From Abyssibacter profundi (GTDB lineage: Bacteria; Pseudomonadota; Gammaproteobacteria; Nevskiales; OUC007), in assembly GCF_003151135.1 (NCBI RefSeq), contig NZ_QEQK01000004.1, forward strand, positions 124,001 to 188,000: a stretch of DNA of 64,000 nucleotides. Reading direction: 5' to 3'. Positions 33,423 through 58,098 of the stretch are shown here, in pieces. Both the position numbers and the translations under genes were made by a program. A model generated the notes under the pieces. It was not told where the DNA came from and did not search any database. It saw only the letters and a program-made list of their open reading frames with translations. The first letter of the stretch is position 1. Every line of letters begins with the position of its first letter.

Positions 33423-34358
33423 ATGAATTTAAGGCAGCTTGATTTAAATCTGCTCGTGGTTCTGGACGCCATTTATTCCGAGGGGGGCATTACCGCGGCA
33501 GCCCGACGCCTGCACCTGACCCAGCCGGCGGTCACCCACGCGCTCAACCGCCTGCGTCAGCACTTCGGTGATCCGCTGTTTGTGCGGGAAGGCCGCCAGA
33601 TGCTGCCCACTCCAATGGCCAGAAACCTGATCCGTCCGCTCAAGCGGTCGCTACGAAGCATCGAGATCATGTTGCATGAGGTCGATCGTTTTGAACCGGC
33701 GACGACGCCACGGCGATTCAGCCTGGGGGTGCGCGACGTTTTGGAGTCGGTGCTGTTGCCGCCGCTGATGCGTTCCATTACCAAGGCGGCGCCCCTGGTG
33801 GATCTGGAGGCGGTCCAAACGGTGCGACGCACGTTGGCCAGTGATCTCGATAGCGGCGAGTTGGATGCCGCCATTGATGTTCTGCTGCCCTTGCCGGATA
33901 GCATTCATCGTCAGCGCATTGTGTTTGACCGATTTGTTGTGGTCGCGCGCAAGGGCCATCCGGACGTGGGAAAACGACTGTCACTGGCCACTTATCTGGC
34001 GCAGGACCATGTGCTGGCGACGGTGAGGCGAACCGGCGGAGGGATGGAAGATGTGAGCCTGGCTCAGCTCGGCCAGACTCGTCGAATACGCCTGCGCTGC
34101 CAGCACTACTTCGCCGCATGCCGTGTGGTCAGCGAGACGAATCTGATCCTGACCATGCCGGAAAACTACGCCCGGGTGGCCAATGCCGGGCTCGACAACC
34201 AGGTGTTGCCGGCCCCGGTCGACATGACGCCCCTTGATGGCTACCTCTATTGGCACCGCAACGTTGAGAACGACCCGGCCAATCGCTGGTTTCGTGAACA
34301 GGTGCTGGGCGCACTGCCGGGCGTGCAGGACACCGGCCATCATCAGAATCGCGGATAA
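33423..34358 (+). CDS. LysR-family transcriptional regulator
   Basis: A 311-residue LysR-type regulator. The winged helix spans residues 1-60 (LDLNLLVVLDAIYSEGGITAAARRLHLTQPAVTHALNRLRQHFGDPLFVREGRQM), a near-consensus LTTR sequence of the LeuO/NodD-like branch. The effector domain starts at about residue 90 (RRFSLGVRDVLESVLLPPLM). It is divergent from the catabolic operon, the usual arrangement for a LysR protein that controls its neighbour in response to a pathway intermediate. The peptide/radical SAM genes follow 81 nt downstream on the same strand, so they may lie on the same message or have their own promoter. Confidence 0.93.
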   Translation: MNLRQLDLNLLVVLDAIYSEGGITAAARRLHLTQPAVTHALNRLRQHFGDPLFVREGRQMLPTPMARNLIRPLKRSLRSIEIMLHEVDRFEPATTPRRFSLGVRDVLESVLLPPLMRSITKAAPLVDLEAVQTVRRTLASDLDSGELDAAIDVLLPLPDSIHRQRIVFDRFVVVARKGHPDVGKRLSLATYLAQDHVLATVRRTGGGMEDVSLAQLGQTRRIRLRCQHYFAACRVVSETNLILTMPENYARVANAGLDNQVLPAPVDMTPLDGYLYWHRNVENDPANRWFREQVLGALPGVQDTGHHQNRG

Positions 34359-34439
34359 ACAAGGCTCGAGGCTTGCGCTGCAATGCCGCGAGGGTCGAGG
34401 ATCAACCTGGGGATTGCTTAGAAACAAGGGGAGTGTGTG

Positions 34440-34685
34440 ATGTCGAAGTCGAAGTCAGATGCCTCGTTGCCTTACGACGAGGATGGATTGTCTGCAGCGG
34501 GTTACCACGGGGCCGGCTTTTTGCTGTTGGATCAGCCGGGTGACGCGCCCAAGCTGCCGCCCGCACTGGTTGAGAAGCTCGAAGGCTTGGTGGAGCAGGC
34601 CTGTCATACGGTCTTGCATGAGGCGGCGCAGGCCGATCCGTCGCTGGTGACCATGCATCCGTGGATTCGTGTGATTCCGCGCTAG
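34440..34685 (+). CDS. Candidate RiPP precursor peptide
   Basis: An 81-residue small protein with a strong ribosome site (AGGGGAG seven bases before the ATG at 34440; an in-frame GTG just before it is less likely). The sequence starts with a polar segment, has LLLDQPGDAPKLPPALVEKLEGLVEQA as a likely helical leader (residues 28-54) and ends with VTMHPWIRVIPR. Cys55 is the only cysteine. No known domain was recognised. It is followed after 12 nt by a radical SAM gene, the arrangement of a RiPP precursor and its maturase. The C-terminal HPWIR holds aromatic residues two places before a possible cross-link partner (Trp75-Ile76-Arg77), as in three-residue cyclophane peptides. No protease or exporter was seen nearby. 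The function is an inference from gene order and shape. Confidence 0.6.
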   Translation: MSKSKSDASLPYDEDGLSAAGYHGAGFLLLDQPGDAPKLPPALVEKLEGLVEQACHTVLHEAAQADPSLVTMHPWIRVIPR

Positions 34686-34697
34686 CCGGCCTCACGC

Positions 34698-35786
34698 GTG
34701 AACGTTGTTCTCAAGCTCAGCAAGCTCTGCAATCTACGTTGCACCTACTGCTACGAGTATGAGCATCTGGCCAACCCGGCACGCATGCCGATCACCGGGT
34801 TGGCACATTTTTTTCGCTCCCTGGCCGAGTGGCTGGACACGCAAGAACAGCGTGTCCGGATTGAAGTCGCGCTGCATGGGGGCGAGCCACTGCTGTTGCC
34901 CGTCGACTATCTCACCCAGGTGATGACCAGCCAGGCGCCACTGCGGAATGCCGGACACCCGGTCCGCAATACGGTCCAGTCGAACCTGTACCGTATGCGA
35001 CGGGAGACACTCCGCTTTTTGGAAACGTTCGACGTCGGGCTCGGCGTCTCTATCGACGTGCATGGACAGGCGCGGGTGGATGCCAGTGGACGCTGCGCCG
35101 AAGCCGTGGTCGATCGTCATCTACGTGACCTGCTGGATAGCGGGCTGGCCGATCGTATCGATCTCGGCGGCATCAGCGTGCTGCATGCCGGCAATGTTGA
35201 TCAGGCGGTGGCGACGTACCAGTACTTTGCGGAACTGGGCCTGAATTACCGGATTTTGCCAATCTTCTCGATGCAGACGCCGGAGCCGCGGATGCGTTCG
35301 TTAATGCTTCCGCCTGCCCGCATTGTTGAGGCCTTTCGGGCGGTTTTACAGGCCAGGCTGGCGGATGGCGCAGGCGGCATTCGCATCGAACCGCTTGAGG
35401 AATACTTGCAGACAGCTGGGCTTCGTCAGCAGGGCGAGCGGCGGCCGCCTGTTAGCGACAAGCTGCCCTGGTCGCTCATCGTCGATACGCAAGGGGACGC
35501 CTACCTGCATGCCGATGCGTACAGCCCGGGTGCCCGGCTGGGAAATGTCTTCTCGGATGCCTTCTCCGACATCATGGGTTCCAGCGCCTATGCCCAGGCG
35601 CTGCGACAGCAGCATCAGCGGACCAGGCTATGCGAACCCTGCCCATGGGGGGCGCAGTGCACACGGTTGCCGATGGCACAGGCATTGTTCAGCGAACGGA
35701 CGCTGGGTGCCGACGGGCAGGGTCGATGCGCCGTGGCTCGACCCTTCCTGCAAACCCTGGACGATTGGCTTGGGCAGGCGGCCTGA
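34698..35786 (+). CDS. Radical SAM protein, likely peptide maturase (SPASM/twitch-type C-terminus)
   Basis: A 362-residue radical SAM enzyme. The 4Fe-4S cluster motif CNLRCTYC (Cys11, Cys15, Cys18) lies near the N-terminus, followed by YEYEHLAN, the GGEP motif (ALHGGEPLLLP) and the strand LGVSIDVHG, the pattern of peptide-modifying rSAM proteins such as XyeB, FxsB and GrrM. The C-terminus has a cysteine set Cys312, Cys315, Cys321 and Cys344 (CX2CX5CX22C), which suggests an auxiliary cluster of reduced SPASM type. Translation starts at GTG 34698 with no good ribosome site, so it is probably coupled to the small gene 12 nt upstream. Later ATGs would lose the cluster motif. The likely substrate is that upstream peptide. 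Confidence 0.88.
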   Translation: MNVVLKLSKLCNLRCTYCYEYEHLANPARMPITGLAHFFRSLAEWLDTQEQRVRIEVALHGGEPLLLPVDYLTQVMTSQAPLRNAGHPVRNTVQSNLYRMRRETLRFLETFDVGLGVSIDVHGQARVDASGRCAEAVVDRHLRDLLDSGLADRIDLGGISVLHAGNVDQAVATYQYFAELGLNYRILPIFSMQTPEPRMRSLMLPPARIVEAFRAVLQARLADGAGGIRIEPLEEYLQTAGLRQQGERRPPVSDKLPWSLIVDTQGDAYLHADAYSPGARLGNVFSDAFSDIMGSSAYAQALRQQHQRTRLCEPCPWGAQCTRLPMAQALFSERTLGADGQGRCAVARPFLQTLDDWLGQAA

Positions 35787-35826
35787 GACAGCGGCTGGAG
35801 TCGCGCCCTCAAGCACCCCGCCCACC

Positions 35827-38013
35827 CTATTGGCCCAGTAGCTGCTGAAATCGCGGTAACCCCCGAAGCGGGGACCAAACCGGGTGTAATCGCAAGAACT
35901 GGATGCTCGGACCAAAGGGTTGACGATAAAGCTGTTCAAGCAGAACCAGACAACGGCTTTGTTCGCCTGCCAGCGCCCAGGCCATGGCGACACGCGTGGC
36001 CACGTCGGAGTAACCGACCGGGTCGACGTCCACCGGCATCAGGTCCAGTGCCCGCTGGCCATGTTGCAGCGACGTCAGCTTGTCACCCAAACCGGCCGCA
36101 ACCAGGGCGAGATCCGCCTCGAAGCCAGGGTTGTTGGGTTGGGACTGTCTGGCGGTTTCGAGATGGTCCCGCGCTGTCTGCAAGTGGCGCCCCGCGCCAG
36201 GGTCATCGCGTAGAACAGCCATGAGTCCCTGCGCCAGCGCGCGCGGCGTGCGTCCCAGGCCGCCGCTTGCCGGCAGCCATGTTCGCGGATAGCGATTGAT
36301 CAGCGCGGCGGCCCGTTCCAGGTCCGACTCCCACGCCGCCGCGATGTATCTCATATAGGTGATGCTGTGGCCTGGGTCGACGTCTGCTGGAATATCGTTC
36401 AGCACACGGCGCAGGGGCGCGGTGTCGCCGCGAGATTCGACGATGAACATCGCATGATCGATGCGTTTAAAGGGGTCATCGGGGTCGAGTGCCGCCAGCC
36501 GTTGATAGAGGGGAGCCGCTTCCTCATACCGCCGCAGACCGCGCAACAAACCTGCGAAATCGGCGAGCAAGCTGAGGTTCTCAGGGTCGGATGTGACGGC
36601 CGATTGCATCATGCTCACGGCCGCTTCCCATTGACCGAGGCGGCGGTGAGCGCTGGCCATGTAGTGTTTGATGTCTGCCGCCCCCGGCTGTCGGAGTTCG
36701 GCCTGCTGATAGGCCGCAAGGGCGCCAATGTAGTCTCTGAAACCCGCCGCACGGTACAAGCCGAGCGCCAGGTGAGCCTCTGCAAGATTCGGGTCGGCAC
36801 CCAATGCGGCATCGAGTGCGTCACTGGCCTGCTGCAGCCGGCGGGGGTCTGTGTCGTAGCCGAACCAGTGCGTAAACGTATGCACGCGGGCCAGTGTCGC
36901 CTGTGCGAGTGCAAAATCCGGGTCTTCCGCCACCGCGCGGTCCAGCAGTGCCTGGCTGCGAAACAGGCTGGCCCGCCCGGTGCCATCCCGGCGCAATTCA
37001 TCGCGTGCCTGCAGATAGGCCTGATACGCCGATGCATCTGTCGTTGGAACCTGCGTCATGGCCTGCACTTCTGTCGGGCGCAAAGTGGCGCCAATCGACG
37101 CGGCGACGTGCTGGGCGATCTGACTCTGAATCTCGAAGACATCCGCCAGTTCGCCATCGAGCACATCCACCCATAAGTGGGTGTCTGTGGCGACCTCGAC
37201 CAACTGGGCGTTGACCCGCAGGCGCTGTCCGATGCGCTGGACGCTGCCTTCGAGCACGTGGTTCACGCCCAGGCGTCGCCCGATCTCGGGGACCGATGCC
37301 TGGCTGTCCCGGTACCGCTCGACCGATGTTCGCGAGATGACCCGAAGATCCTGGACCCGCGACAGGTGCGTCAACACGTTTTCGTGCACGGCATCGACGA
37401 GGTAGCGGGTGGCCTCGGGGTGTTCGCTGTAGTTCTCGAACGGAAGCACGGCGATCGTCGGCTGTTTCGGCTCAGTCCCCACGGTGGGTTGATCCGCCTC
37501 GATCAGGACTCGGGCACCCATCCAGCCCATCAGTACGACCATCAAACCACCCAACAACCAGCCAGCCGTCCGAGCGCCAGCCGACCTGTTGCGATGGCTT
37601 GTTCGAGGGGCGGTCGCGGCCGCCGTGGGGCTTGGCGCAGTGGCGGAGGCCGGGTCTGCCGCCGGGGGCAGCGGGTGGAAATCGCCCCCGAATCGATAAC
37701 CGTAGCCATGCGCGGTTTCAATCGCGGGGGCGGCGGCCGTGCCCAGCGCGCGCCTGAGCTTGGTGACCGCGCGGGCAATCACCGAGTCGGAGACGACACG
37801 TCCGTCCCAAAGATCATCGATCAAGGTTTGCTTGGAGACGGCCTCGCCCTGGCGGCGGATGAGCAGGCAGAGCAGGTCGAATGGCTTTGGCTCAATCGGG
37901 ATGAGCAGGCCGTCGCGGAATAGCTGGCGACTCCGCTCATCGACCTCCACATCGGCAAAACGGCCATGCAGTGGATTTGTCATGGCCGCTGCGGCGTCGT
38001 TCTGTTTGATCAT
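35827..38013 (-). CDS. CadC-like membrane regulator with winged helix, FlgO/TolB-like and TPR domains
   Basis: A 728-residue one-protein sensor-regulator. Residues about 18-110 are an OmpR-type winged helix (PFDLLCLLIRRQGEAVSKQTLIDDLWDGRVVSDSVIARAVTKLRRAL; GYGYRFGG), then a Pro/Ala/Thr-rich linker, one membrane helix (about 148-167), a periplasmic FlgO/TolB-like domain (PTIAVLPFENYSEHPEATRYLVDAVHENVLTHLSR, residues about 184-300) and TPR repeats from about 320 to the end. This is the ToxR/CadC architecture extended by TPRs, common in gammaproteobacteria; targets and signals are unknown. It converges on the radical SAM gene (40 nt between stops) and is divergent from the LuxR-type gene, which makes that a candidate target. 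Confidence 0.9.
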   Translation of the reverse strand: MIKQNDAAAAMTNPLHGRFADVEVDERSRQLFRDGLLIPIEPKPFDLLCLLIRRQGEAVSKQTLIDDLWDGRVVSDSVIARAVTKLRRALGTAAAPAIETAHGYGYRFGGDFHPLPPAADPASATAPSPTAAATAPRTSHRNRSAGARTAGWLLGGLMVVLMGWMGARVLIEADQPTVGTEPKQPTIAVLPFENYSEHPEATRYLVDAVHENVLTHLSRVQDLRVISRTSVERYRDSQASVPEIGRRLGVNHVLEGSVQRIGQRLRVNAQLVEVATDTHLWVDVLDGELADVFEIQSQIAQHVAASIGATLRPTEVQAMTQVPTTDASAYQAYLQARDELRRDGTGRASLFRSQALLDRAVAEDPDFALAQATLARVHTFTHWFGYDTDPRRLQQASDALDAALGADPNLAEAHLALGLYRAAGFRDYIGALAAYQQAELRQPGAADIKHYMASAHRRLGQWEAAVSMMQSAVTSDPENLSLLADFAGLLRGLRRYEEAAPLYQRLAALDPDDPFKRIDHAMFIVESRGDTAPLRRVLNDIPADVDPGHSITYMRYIAAAWESDLERAAALINRYPRTWLPASGGLGRTPRALAQGLMAVLRDDPGAGRHLQTARDHLETARQSQPNNPGFEADLALVAAGLGDKLTSLQHGQRALDLMPVDVDPVGYSDVATRVAMAWALAGEQSRCLVLLEQLYRQPFGPSIQFLRLHPVWSPLRGLPRFQQLLGQ

Positions 38014-38321
38014 TCCAGCCCCCGGGTGCCCGGATGGAGACTACCACCGAGCGGGACAATCCCATGATCGGGGACAGGAATAGCCGCTCATGGACCCGGC
38101 CACATCCGTTAGGTCGATTGGCCGAGTACGAACGCTGGCCCGACCAGGATTGCACGGAAAAAATTCTAAGTCATTGAAAGATAAAGAGAGATTGATTGGT
38201 CAGGAAATGGTCATGAATTGGTCTACGTCGCGTCAGGACTTCCTGCCTCGACGCCTCGATGCTGACCCAGCCGACGCAGGCCGCGCCGGCACGTCAACGT
38301 CAGCAATCGGGAGAGGGCAGG

Positions 38322-38987
38322 ATGGCAGATTCAATATCCGACCTGGTTCACCTGGACCAGAAGACATCAGAGGATTACTTCAGACGCAATGCCTGGCTGG
38401 TGGACGCACTCTGCGGAGATGATGCGGCCTTCATGCTACTGGACGAGTCCGCACTCGTCGGCTACGTCAGTGGGGGCGCGCGCTGTCTACTGGGCAGTCT
38501 CCCCGCGCTGCGGATTCATCAGGGGCGGCTTTCGTCTCAACGGGCACAGGACCGCGCGGTGCTGGATGAGCTGTGTCACAGGGTCCGCGGTATCGGCCAG
38601 GGTGGTCTTTGTGATCCCGATCATTTGTTCACCCTGGGCGCGGTAGGAACACACCGACGGCTTGTCGTACAGCTCACCTGGGCGGGGCGCACCCGACTGC
38701 AAAAACCCGGAACCCTGGTGGTGCTGCGGCTGTTCGAAGAGTCGCCGCAGATTCGCATTTCGCGTCGCATGCTCTGTAAGCACTACGGTCTGACCAGCAC
38801 GGAGGCCGCGCTGGCCGCTTCCTTGGCCGAGGGCAAACCGTTAAGCAAGTTCCGACTGCAGCAAGGAACAGCGATGAGTACGGTGCGGACACAGCTTCGT
38901 CATGTGTTTCGCAAGGTGGGGGTCAACAGCCAGGCCGCACTGATTCACACGCTACTGACGGGGCCGATGACGTGGCAGCGAATGTAG
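38322..38987 (+). CDS. LuxR-type transcriptional regulator
   Basis: A 221-residue protein with a C-terminal LuxR/GerE-like helix-turn-helix at about residues 155-215 (HYGLTSTEAALAASLAEGKPLSKF, STVRTQLRHVFRKVGVNSQAALIH). The N-terminal domain of about 150 residues has PAS-like character (FMLLDESALVGYVSGGARCLL) but no family was recognised and no phosphoacceptor Asp pattern of a response regulator is seen. The ATG at 38322 has a rich ribosome site (GGGAGAGGGCAGG). The last 16 nt overlap the start of the PKD-like protein, so both are probably made from one message. Confidence 0.8.
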   Translation: MADSISDLVHLDQKTSEDYFRRNAWLVDALCGDDAAFMLLDESALVGYVSGGARCLLGSLPALRIHQGRLSSQRAQDRAVLDELCHRVRGIGQGGLCDPDHLFTLGAVGTHRRLVVQLTWAGRTRLQKPGTLVVLRLFEESPQIRISRRMLCKHYGLTSTEAALAASLAEGKPLSKFRLQQGTAMSTVRTQLRHVFRKVGVNSQAALIHTLLTGPMTWQRM

Positions 38988-40063
38988 TCAGTCGGCACGT
39001 CCCGCTATTGTTGCTCTGCATAGCATGCTGCGGACTGGCCTATGGACCGGCGACCGAGCGCAGCACCCCGCCTCAGCCAGGACAAACGCGGTTGGTGATT
39101 GCTGTCTCCGGCGCGAGGGGCGAGGCAGGTCGTCCACCACCGGCAACACGCGCACCGGAGGTCCCGCAGCTGGCGCTGCCAGGCCATGGCGGCATCCATG
39201 TGCTGGCGGAGGAACCATGGCTGGACTTGGGCATCCAGACATGGTCGGCGGCGCCTGTTGCAGGACTGATAATTCAGACTGATGGTGAGGATCGCTATTG
39301 GGCATGGACGACACCGACCGTCGCTGAGCTTGGCGGCGGGTCGGGGCAGATTCGAGATTGGAGCTTGCGCTTGGAACTCGACCCGTCGGTCTCAGCCGTG
39401 CAGTGCCTGCAAATGGCGGTTCACGATGAGCTGGGGCGGGTGTCGCCGTACCGCAAGCTCTGTCTGGCGCGACGGAAACACGGTGGTCCGGTCGCCAACG
39501 CGGGTGCTGACCTCACCGTCTACGAAGGCGAGGCGGTTCAGCTTACCGGCGACTTGCGGTTGATCGGGCAGTCCTTACAGACGGTTCGGTGGCGGATGAA
39601 AGATGCCCCTAACAAGGTCCGCCTGCATAACCCGGCAAGCGTGTCGCCGTCGTTCACGGCGCCCCGGGTGGATGCCCCGACGACCTTGACGCTGGAAATG
39701 ATGGTTCAGGACATGGCGGGCGGGCGAGCAACGGACACGCTGCGTGTGACGGTGCTCGATACCCATCAATCGGCCAGGCCCGTGGTGGATGCCGGAATGG
39801 ATTTGACCGTGCAATCGGGTCGGCAAAGCGTCGCGCTGACGGGGCGCGTGACGGATCTGGATAGCGCGGTCTCCGTGTATTGGATGGTCGATGATCCCTC
39901 TGTGCAGTTGCAGGATCATCAACGGCTACGAACCCTGTTCGATGCCCCCCGTGTTGACGTGCCCACATTGCTGACGTTCATGCTGGTGGCGGCCGATGGC
40001 CATCATCAGCAGCGCGATACCGTGCTGGTGCGGGTCGAACCGCCTGCAGCGAGGCACCATTGA
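38972..40063 (+). CDS. Secreted protein with two PKD/Ig-like repeats
   Basis: A 363-residue protein that starts at GTG 38972 inside the LuxR-type gene. The N-terminus is a signal peptide (HVPLLLLCIACCGLAYG); the cysteines do not form a clean lipobox, so it is either secreted or a poorly conserved lipoprotein. Two tandem repeats of PKD/cadherin-like type can be aligned, at about residues 173-265 (PVANAGADLTVYEGEAVQLTG ... TATDTLRVTV-like end) and 272-357 (PVVDAGMDLTVQSGRQSVALTG ... QRDTVLVRV). The first 170 residues show no recognised domain. A surface-adhesive or binding function is typical of such folds but not demonstrated. It is followed by convergent genes. Confidence 0.7.
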   Translation: MAANVVSRHVPLLLLCIACCGLAYGPATERSTPPQPGQTRLVIAVSGARGEAGRPPPATRAPEVPQLALPGHGGIHVLAEEPWLDLGIQTWSAAPVAGLIIQTDGEDRYWAWTTPTVAELGGGSGQIRDWSLRLELDPSVSAVQCLQMAVHDELGRVSPYRKLCLARRKHGGPVANAGADLTVYEGEAVQLTGDLRLIGQSLQTVRWRMKDAPNKVRLHNPASVSPSFTAPRVDAPTTLTLEMMVQDMAGGRATDTLRVTVLDTHQSARPVVDAGMDLTVQSGRQSVALTGRVTDLDSAVSVYWMVDDPSVQLQDHQRLRTLFDAPRVDVPTLLTFMLVAADGHHQQRDTVLVRVEPPAARHH

Positions 40064-40100
40064 GCAAAGCCAGGCGGCGATGACCGGACAGCGGGTCGCG

Positions 40101-57817: not shown

Positions 57818-57830
57818 GGCGAGGGTGGCC

Positions 57831-58098
57831 AGGGAAGCGCTGACTGATTCGCACCACCAAGACGGAGCCGGTTTTCCCGCGAACCCAGGCGGAGAGAGTG
57901 CCGCTTGGTCATTCCAAGTCAGCGAACGACAACGCAGGATCGCGGGAAAACCGGCCCGTTCCGTCAGGATTGCGCCTGCAAACAGGCCAGGCTGCGTTGC
58001 TCGTCGCTCATTTGGAATGACCAAACCTTGTTCCTCGCGCCTTGCCTGGCCTGTTTGCAGGCAGCAACTTGGCGGTTCGAATCAGTCAGCGCTTCCCT
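57831..58098. repeat. 268-bp palindromic repeat element with 21-bp terminal inverted repeats (MITE-like)
   Basis: The perfect 21-bp ends are AGGGAAGCGCTGACTGATTC(G) at 57831-57851 and its reverse complement at 58078-58098. Inside are three more perfect inverted repeats: 57867-57882 with 57940-57955 (GCCGGTTTTCCCGCGA), 57905-57917 with 58012-58024 (TTGGTCATTCCAA) and 57974-57992 with 58044-58062 (GCCTGCAAACAGGCCAGGC). The second pair crosses the first and third, so all cannot form simple hairpins at once. No ORF of note and no clear target duplication was seen. It resembles a non-autonomous mobile repeat of the kind dispersed in many proteobacterial genomes. Confidence 0.85.

Follow-up and report, generated by a model that had tools for sequence, protein, structure and literature searches.

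Peptides cross-linked by radical SAM enzymes include the antibiotics darobactin and dynobactin, whose family enzymes DarE, DarW and DynA are encoded in a minimal layout of one precursor gene and one radical SAM gene. The same layout is seen at the locus described here, a pair of adjacent genes within a 64,000-nucleotide stretch of Abyssibacter profundi DNA (the window, to which all positions refer). The triceptide maturases, or 3-CyFEs (XyeB/XncB, FxsB, GrrM/OscB and YhhB), also resemble the locus in having one auxiliary cluster, an adjacent precursor and a short operon, the likeness in cluster number resting on the cysteine sets of FxsB and an XyeB-like enzyme. XncB forms links between Trp C6 and Arg C-beta, and a Trp-X-Arg cyclophane would therefore not be new chemistry (PMC11002830). 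A further comparison is offered by ChlB-ChlA (PDB 9gm3/9gmc): ChlB, solved with its precursor leader, has a peptide-modifying radical SAM fold like that of our enzyme model (TM 0.72-0.76) but is only 17-18% identical to it in sequence. Undescribed pairs of radical SAM enzyme and peptide are common, and one survey found 22 unreported pathways (PMC9062424); nothing at the locus points past known chemistry. Judged on its sequence, the locus is a credible, putative source of a natural product and does not represent a new kind of system.

The first gene (34440-34685, + strand) encodes 81 residues, ends with a TAG at 34683-34685 and is preceded by the strong Shine-Dalgarno-like sequence AAGGGGAG (34426-34433, + strand), 6 nt before the ATG at 34440. 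The TAG and the 12-nt spacer CCGGCCTCACGC (34683-34697, + strand) separate it from the second gene (34698-35786, + strand), which starts with a GTG at 34698, encodes 362 residues and has no Shine-Dalgarno sequence. Direct reading thus bore out the earlier note on the extent and spacing of both ORFs and on the ribosome site, strong on the small gene and lacking on the other, and the numbering that it gave for Trp75-Ile76-Arg77 and His73-Pro74-Trp75 was correct. Both ORFs lie in one reading frame, with the TAG and four codons between them, and the profile alignment of the enzyme family ran through the TAG. We read this shared frame as tight coupling rather than read-through; amber read-through, which would yield some maturase fused to its own substrate, is much less likely.

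The 81-residue ORF is a real gene with host-like composition and codon usage. Its codon score, trained on 25 other genes of the window, was +0.26 per codon compared to -0.38 ± 0.12 for composition shuffles, a difference of 5 standard deviations that was reached by 0 of 2000 shuffles. The peptide frame was the only one with a positive score at 34440-34685, all other frames being negative; an antisense ORF of 97 residues scored -0.69 per codon. Furthermore, its GC3 (0.73) equals that of the neighboring genes. Coding statistics and a position matching that of the relatives' precursor ORFs (see below) together mark it as a putative RiPP precursor gene. Searches of 100 relatives, of plasmids and of viral contigs gave no homologue of the peptide above threshold, and a sub-threshold Hymenobacter match (E 0.1) sits on a replication gene. 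Neither of the two findings that the earlier note would have taken as refuting, widespread homologues lacking the radical SAM gene and conservation lying away from the C-terminal aromatic motif, was made. Scans of NCBIfam and Pfam matched it to no precursor family, including those of the triceptides, and to no Nif11-type leader (PF07862/TIGR03798). AF2 predicted a mostly disordered peptide with one low-confidence helix, a possible leader helix at residues 41-65 (34560-34634, + strand; pLDDT about 50).

The 362-residue product is a radical SAM/SPASM-like maturase. It scored 36.1 bits against PF04055 (cut-off 29.5) and carries, as previously noted, a CX3CX2C motif near its N-terminus (C11, C15 and C18; 34728-34751, + strand) that is invariant in an alignment of 18 sequences. 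The SPASM domain PF13186 scored 18.9 bits, just under its cut-off of 21.5. In a cysteine map against an anaerobic sulfatase maturase (anSME, L034), DarE (L026), FxsB (L035) and an XyeB-like enzyme (L032), from which GrrM was absent, C312, C315, C321 and C344 (35631-35729, + strand) occupy the Aux II positions of anSME, and 0 of 4 Aux I positions are filled; we take the names Aux I and Aux II to be those used for anSME structures. The C-terminal cysteine set is thus reduced and SPASM-like, as the earlier note held, with the Aux II equivalents alone present and a single auxiliary cluster predicted. This Aux II-only pattern is common to the whole clade of the enzyme, FxsB and the XyeB-like enzyme, whereas DarE retains its Aux I cysteines. 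No NCBIfam model reached its cut-off on the enzyme; the best were those for sulfatase maturase, DarW, DynA and AmcB, with 83-93 bits against cut-offs of 349-650. The AF2 model (pLDDT 85.5) has anSME and ChlB as its nearest folds.

The enzyme had been likened to XyeB/FxsB/GrrM-type maturases. The single auxiliary cluster upholds this for FxsB and the XyeB-like enzyme, whereas placement in these families fails: triceptide maturase models gave 38-73 bits against cut-offs of 310-450 (XyeB 38.1/450, FxsB 64.1/370, GrrM 48.2/310), and the enzyme falls in a separate clade. A reduced SPASM-like set does not make it a member of those families. The clade has nine members including the maturase, received 100/100 support and lies outside DarE, XyeB-like/FxsB, GrrM and anSME. 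Its hosts are Nostocales, a myxobacterium, Streptomyces, the IMG/VR contigs L004 and L097, and a genome of the same order (G053), the one genome of that order with a relative of the enzyme (29% identity). At 27-33% identity to the maturase, members share with it the cysteine set and an upstream small ORF. The nearest, on L097, is 31-33% identical, has a different core, and grouped with the maturase at 99/92 and 98/94 in two maximum-likelihood trees.

At least eight relatives were collected, from a profile scan and scans of viral contigs. With the enzyme as a single query sequence, a pattern scan across 85,000 species genomes (genome_contigs) returned no relative, and a three-sequence profile was needed to recover them from this set; class and phylum samples yielded no further clade member. 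By tblastn, seven relatives gave 122-171 bits and the next best locus 81 bits, L097 being added later. Among NCBIfam models, DynA scored highest on the relatives that were scanned (132-151 bits, compared to 89 bits for the maturase), all of these values being far under its cut-off of 450. Our search of the open-access literature, outside of which most subscription papers lie, found no description of the clade. The maturase thus comes from a small branch of enzymes that is scattered widely, is unnamed in NCBIfam and has at least three precursor types; the two-gene locus is an easily tested member of it and suggests no new principle.

Among the relatives listed, a small precursor-like ORF lies directly upstream of the radical SAM gene on the same strand in all seven that are readable (L022, L025, L028, L004, L023, L024 and L097); the contig of the eighth, L021, ends about 0.2 kb upstream of the radical SAM gene, with no clear precursor readable. 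By Pfam and NCBIfam, three of these ORFs have Nif11-type leaders (L025, L023 and, borderline, L004). Because of this conserved association of a small ORF with the modifying enzyme in 7/7 readable clade members, a precursor and its maturase is the best reading of the locus, as proposed earlier, with a probability of roughly three in four. The relatives' leaders are of the Nif11 or a secreted type, in contrast to the peptide studied here, which has neither. Most of the upstream ORFs carry C-terminal cores containing Trp or Tyr, with the sequences GPSFVQNQPY, GPPWVQNQPY, GPSWVQNQPY and GPSWVKQMAY. In five of the eight relatives the radical SAM gene is followed by a gene with an HxD...H motif (HDAST-type, 2OG-like), which is absent at our locus and at L097; two scanned copies had no Pfam match. 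The resulting trio of precursor, radical SAM enzyme and HxD...H protein of ~295 residues, in L022, L025 and L028 (Nostocales), L004 and L021, has GPxWVQNQPY or a similar sequence as its precursor core, which is unreadable in L021, and appears, from its sequences, to be an undescribed RiPP family whose partner resembles a 2OG oxygenase. A JmjC_2 gene is also present at L025, and RiPP precursor-radical SAM pairs lie on L004/L098 and L097, IMG/VR contigs that are catalogued as viral.

The putative core comprises residues 66-81, DPSLVTMHPWIRVIPR (34635-34682, + strand), on account of its C-terminal position and a suggestive likeness to the relatives' cores. The likeness of DPSLVTMHPW to GPSWVQNQPY had P 0.011 against 371 real 81-residue segments when allowed anywhere in the peptide, 0.003 within the C-terminal 20 residues and 0.035 against shuffles, in a test chosen post hoc once the alignment had been seen; over the whole length, similarity to the relatives' precursors was at chance level. 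In this register Trp75 aligns with the Tyr of the relatives and not with their Trp. A second register, PWIRVIP with PWVQNQP, fits too, and neither is decisive. The C-terminal likeness is thus a hint of a shared core. By analogy with known Trp-X-Arg cyclophane chemistry, we tentatively regard Trp75 with Arg77, in Trp75-Ile76-Arg77 (34662-34670, + strand), as the likeliest candidate for a three-residue crosslink.

We infer that the peptide is the substrate of the maturase and propose the following course. The ribosome site of the small gene would serve translation of the peptide, and re-initiation (translational coupling) 12 nt past the precursor stop would give the maturase. The N-terminal portion of the peptide would be bound as a leader by the enzyme, whose CX3CX2C [4Fe-4S] cluster would, with SAM, generate a 5'-deoxyadenosyl radical that takes a hydrogen from a residue of the C-terminal core; the resulting carbon would then be bonded to an aromatic side chain, while an electron would pass to the single auxiliary cluster. 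Since no dedicated functions are linked to the pair, consistent with the earlier remark that no exporter or protease lies nearby, leader removal and export would presumably be carried out by general host functions. A tethered AF2 model, in which the TAG was read as Gln to join peptide and enzyme, gave no confident docking.

Several other readings start from the enzyme. A role as anaerobic sulfatase maturase, or as a close derivative of one, with its substrate protein encoded elsewhere, would fit its top NCBIfam score (sulfatase_rSAM, 92.7 bits) and anSME being its nearest solved fold; yet this score is far under the cut-off of 349, the Aux I cysteines are missing, the tree sets the enzyme apart from anSME, and the genome, which is 99.75% complete, yielded no PF00884 sulfatase. 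This reading is largely refuted and highly improbable. A daropeptide- or dynobactin-type locus that makes an antibiotic directed at BamA is very unlikely, although it draws on the scores of DarW (92 bits) and DynA (89 bits), among the best of the enzyme, and on a first tree in which DarE/DarW-like enzymes were a weak sister of the clade. These scores, like that of DarE (66 bits), are far under the cut-offs of 650 for DarE and DarW and 450 for DynA, and the sister relation was lost once GrrM was added, so that the two trees disagree on how the clade relates to DarE. DynA itself was missing from both, the DynA reference search having returned only an anSME-like protein. Moreover, the enzyme lacks the Aux I cysteines kept by DarE, the core motifs differ in that a WNWxKxF-like core (DarE cores: PMC9055067) is absent from the peptide, and the strain-specific segment around the pair contains no DarBCD-like genes. 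As for a viperin-like antiviral enzyme, suggested by a PADLOC pVip match of 40 bits, we give it almost no credence: the NCBIfam viperin model scored 34 bits where its cut-off is 180, the SPASM-type C-terminal cluster counts against viperin, and the model is nearer in fold to anSME and ChlB.

Other readings start from the peptide or the pair. The small ORF could encode a stand-alone protein or accessory subunit, with the radical SAM enzyme acting elsewhere and adjacency incidental, as would suit a peptide with no detectable homology to any precursor and a mostly disordered predicted structure. We consider this unlikely, because every readable clade member shares the operon layout, several with recognized RiPP leaders, and only the small ORF has a Shine-Dalgarno sequence. 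The pair could also be a non-functional remnant of a cluster that has lost its tailoring and export genes, given that it is absent from genus-mates, lacks the relatives' 2OG-like partner and lies in a genome (99.75% complete) in which no C39 peptidase-type exporter was found. Against such decay, which we hold improbable, both ORFs are intact with normal coding bias, all catalytic cysteines are retained, and the nearest relative, on L097, likewise has no 2OG-like partner. Finally, the precursor-maturase pair might found a new RiPP subclass, defined by a clade unnamed in NCBIfam, a new leader type, the follower-less core HPWIRVIPR and a Trp75 crosslink formed without a partner enzyme; this proposal is doubtful.

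Comparison with two genus-mates placed the pair in a strain-specific segment of 5.8 kb (34317-40091), which holds the precursor, the maturase, a CadC-like/TPR gene on the - strand, a LuxR-like gene and a PKD-domain gene. Both genus-mates keep the preceding LysR gene at 84-85% identity and lack the segment; their backbone is contiguous there, with 27-42 bp after LysR followed by the convergent gene that is found beyond 40091 in the window. LysR, which the earlier note had named as preceding the locus, is therefore conserved backbone and no part of the locus, and this synteny rejects it as a regulator of the cluster. The GC content of the segment is host-like, and no integrase or convincing terminal repeats were seen at it; a 19-nt near-repeat (34335-34353 and 39998-40016, 89%) lies near both ends. 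The protein encoded at 35827-38013 (- strand), a CadC-like winged helix with TPR, is unmatched in the family's other three genomes and weakly matches part of TIGR04510, the model for a peptide modification system cyclase (41 bits, cut-off 400). At 38259-40063, a LuxR-type HTH-like gene, called by eye with no Pfam match, overlaps the gene for the PKD-domain protein. Elsewhere in the window, 104 nt at 57828-57931 have an 82% match to positions 6-109 of L134, a genus-mate contig, at the end of the phosphotransferase gene of that contig, and may represent a small dispersed repeat.
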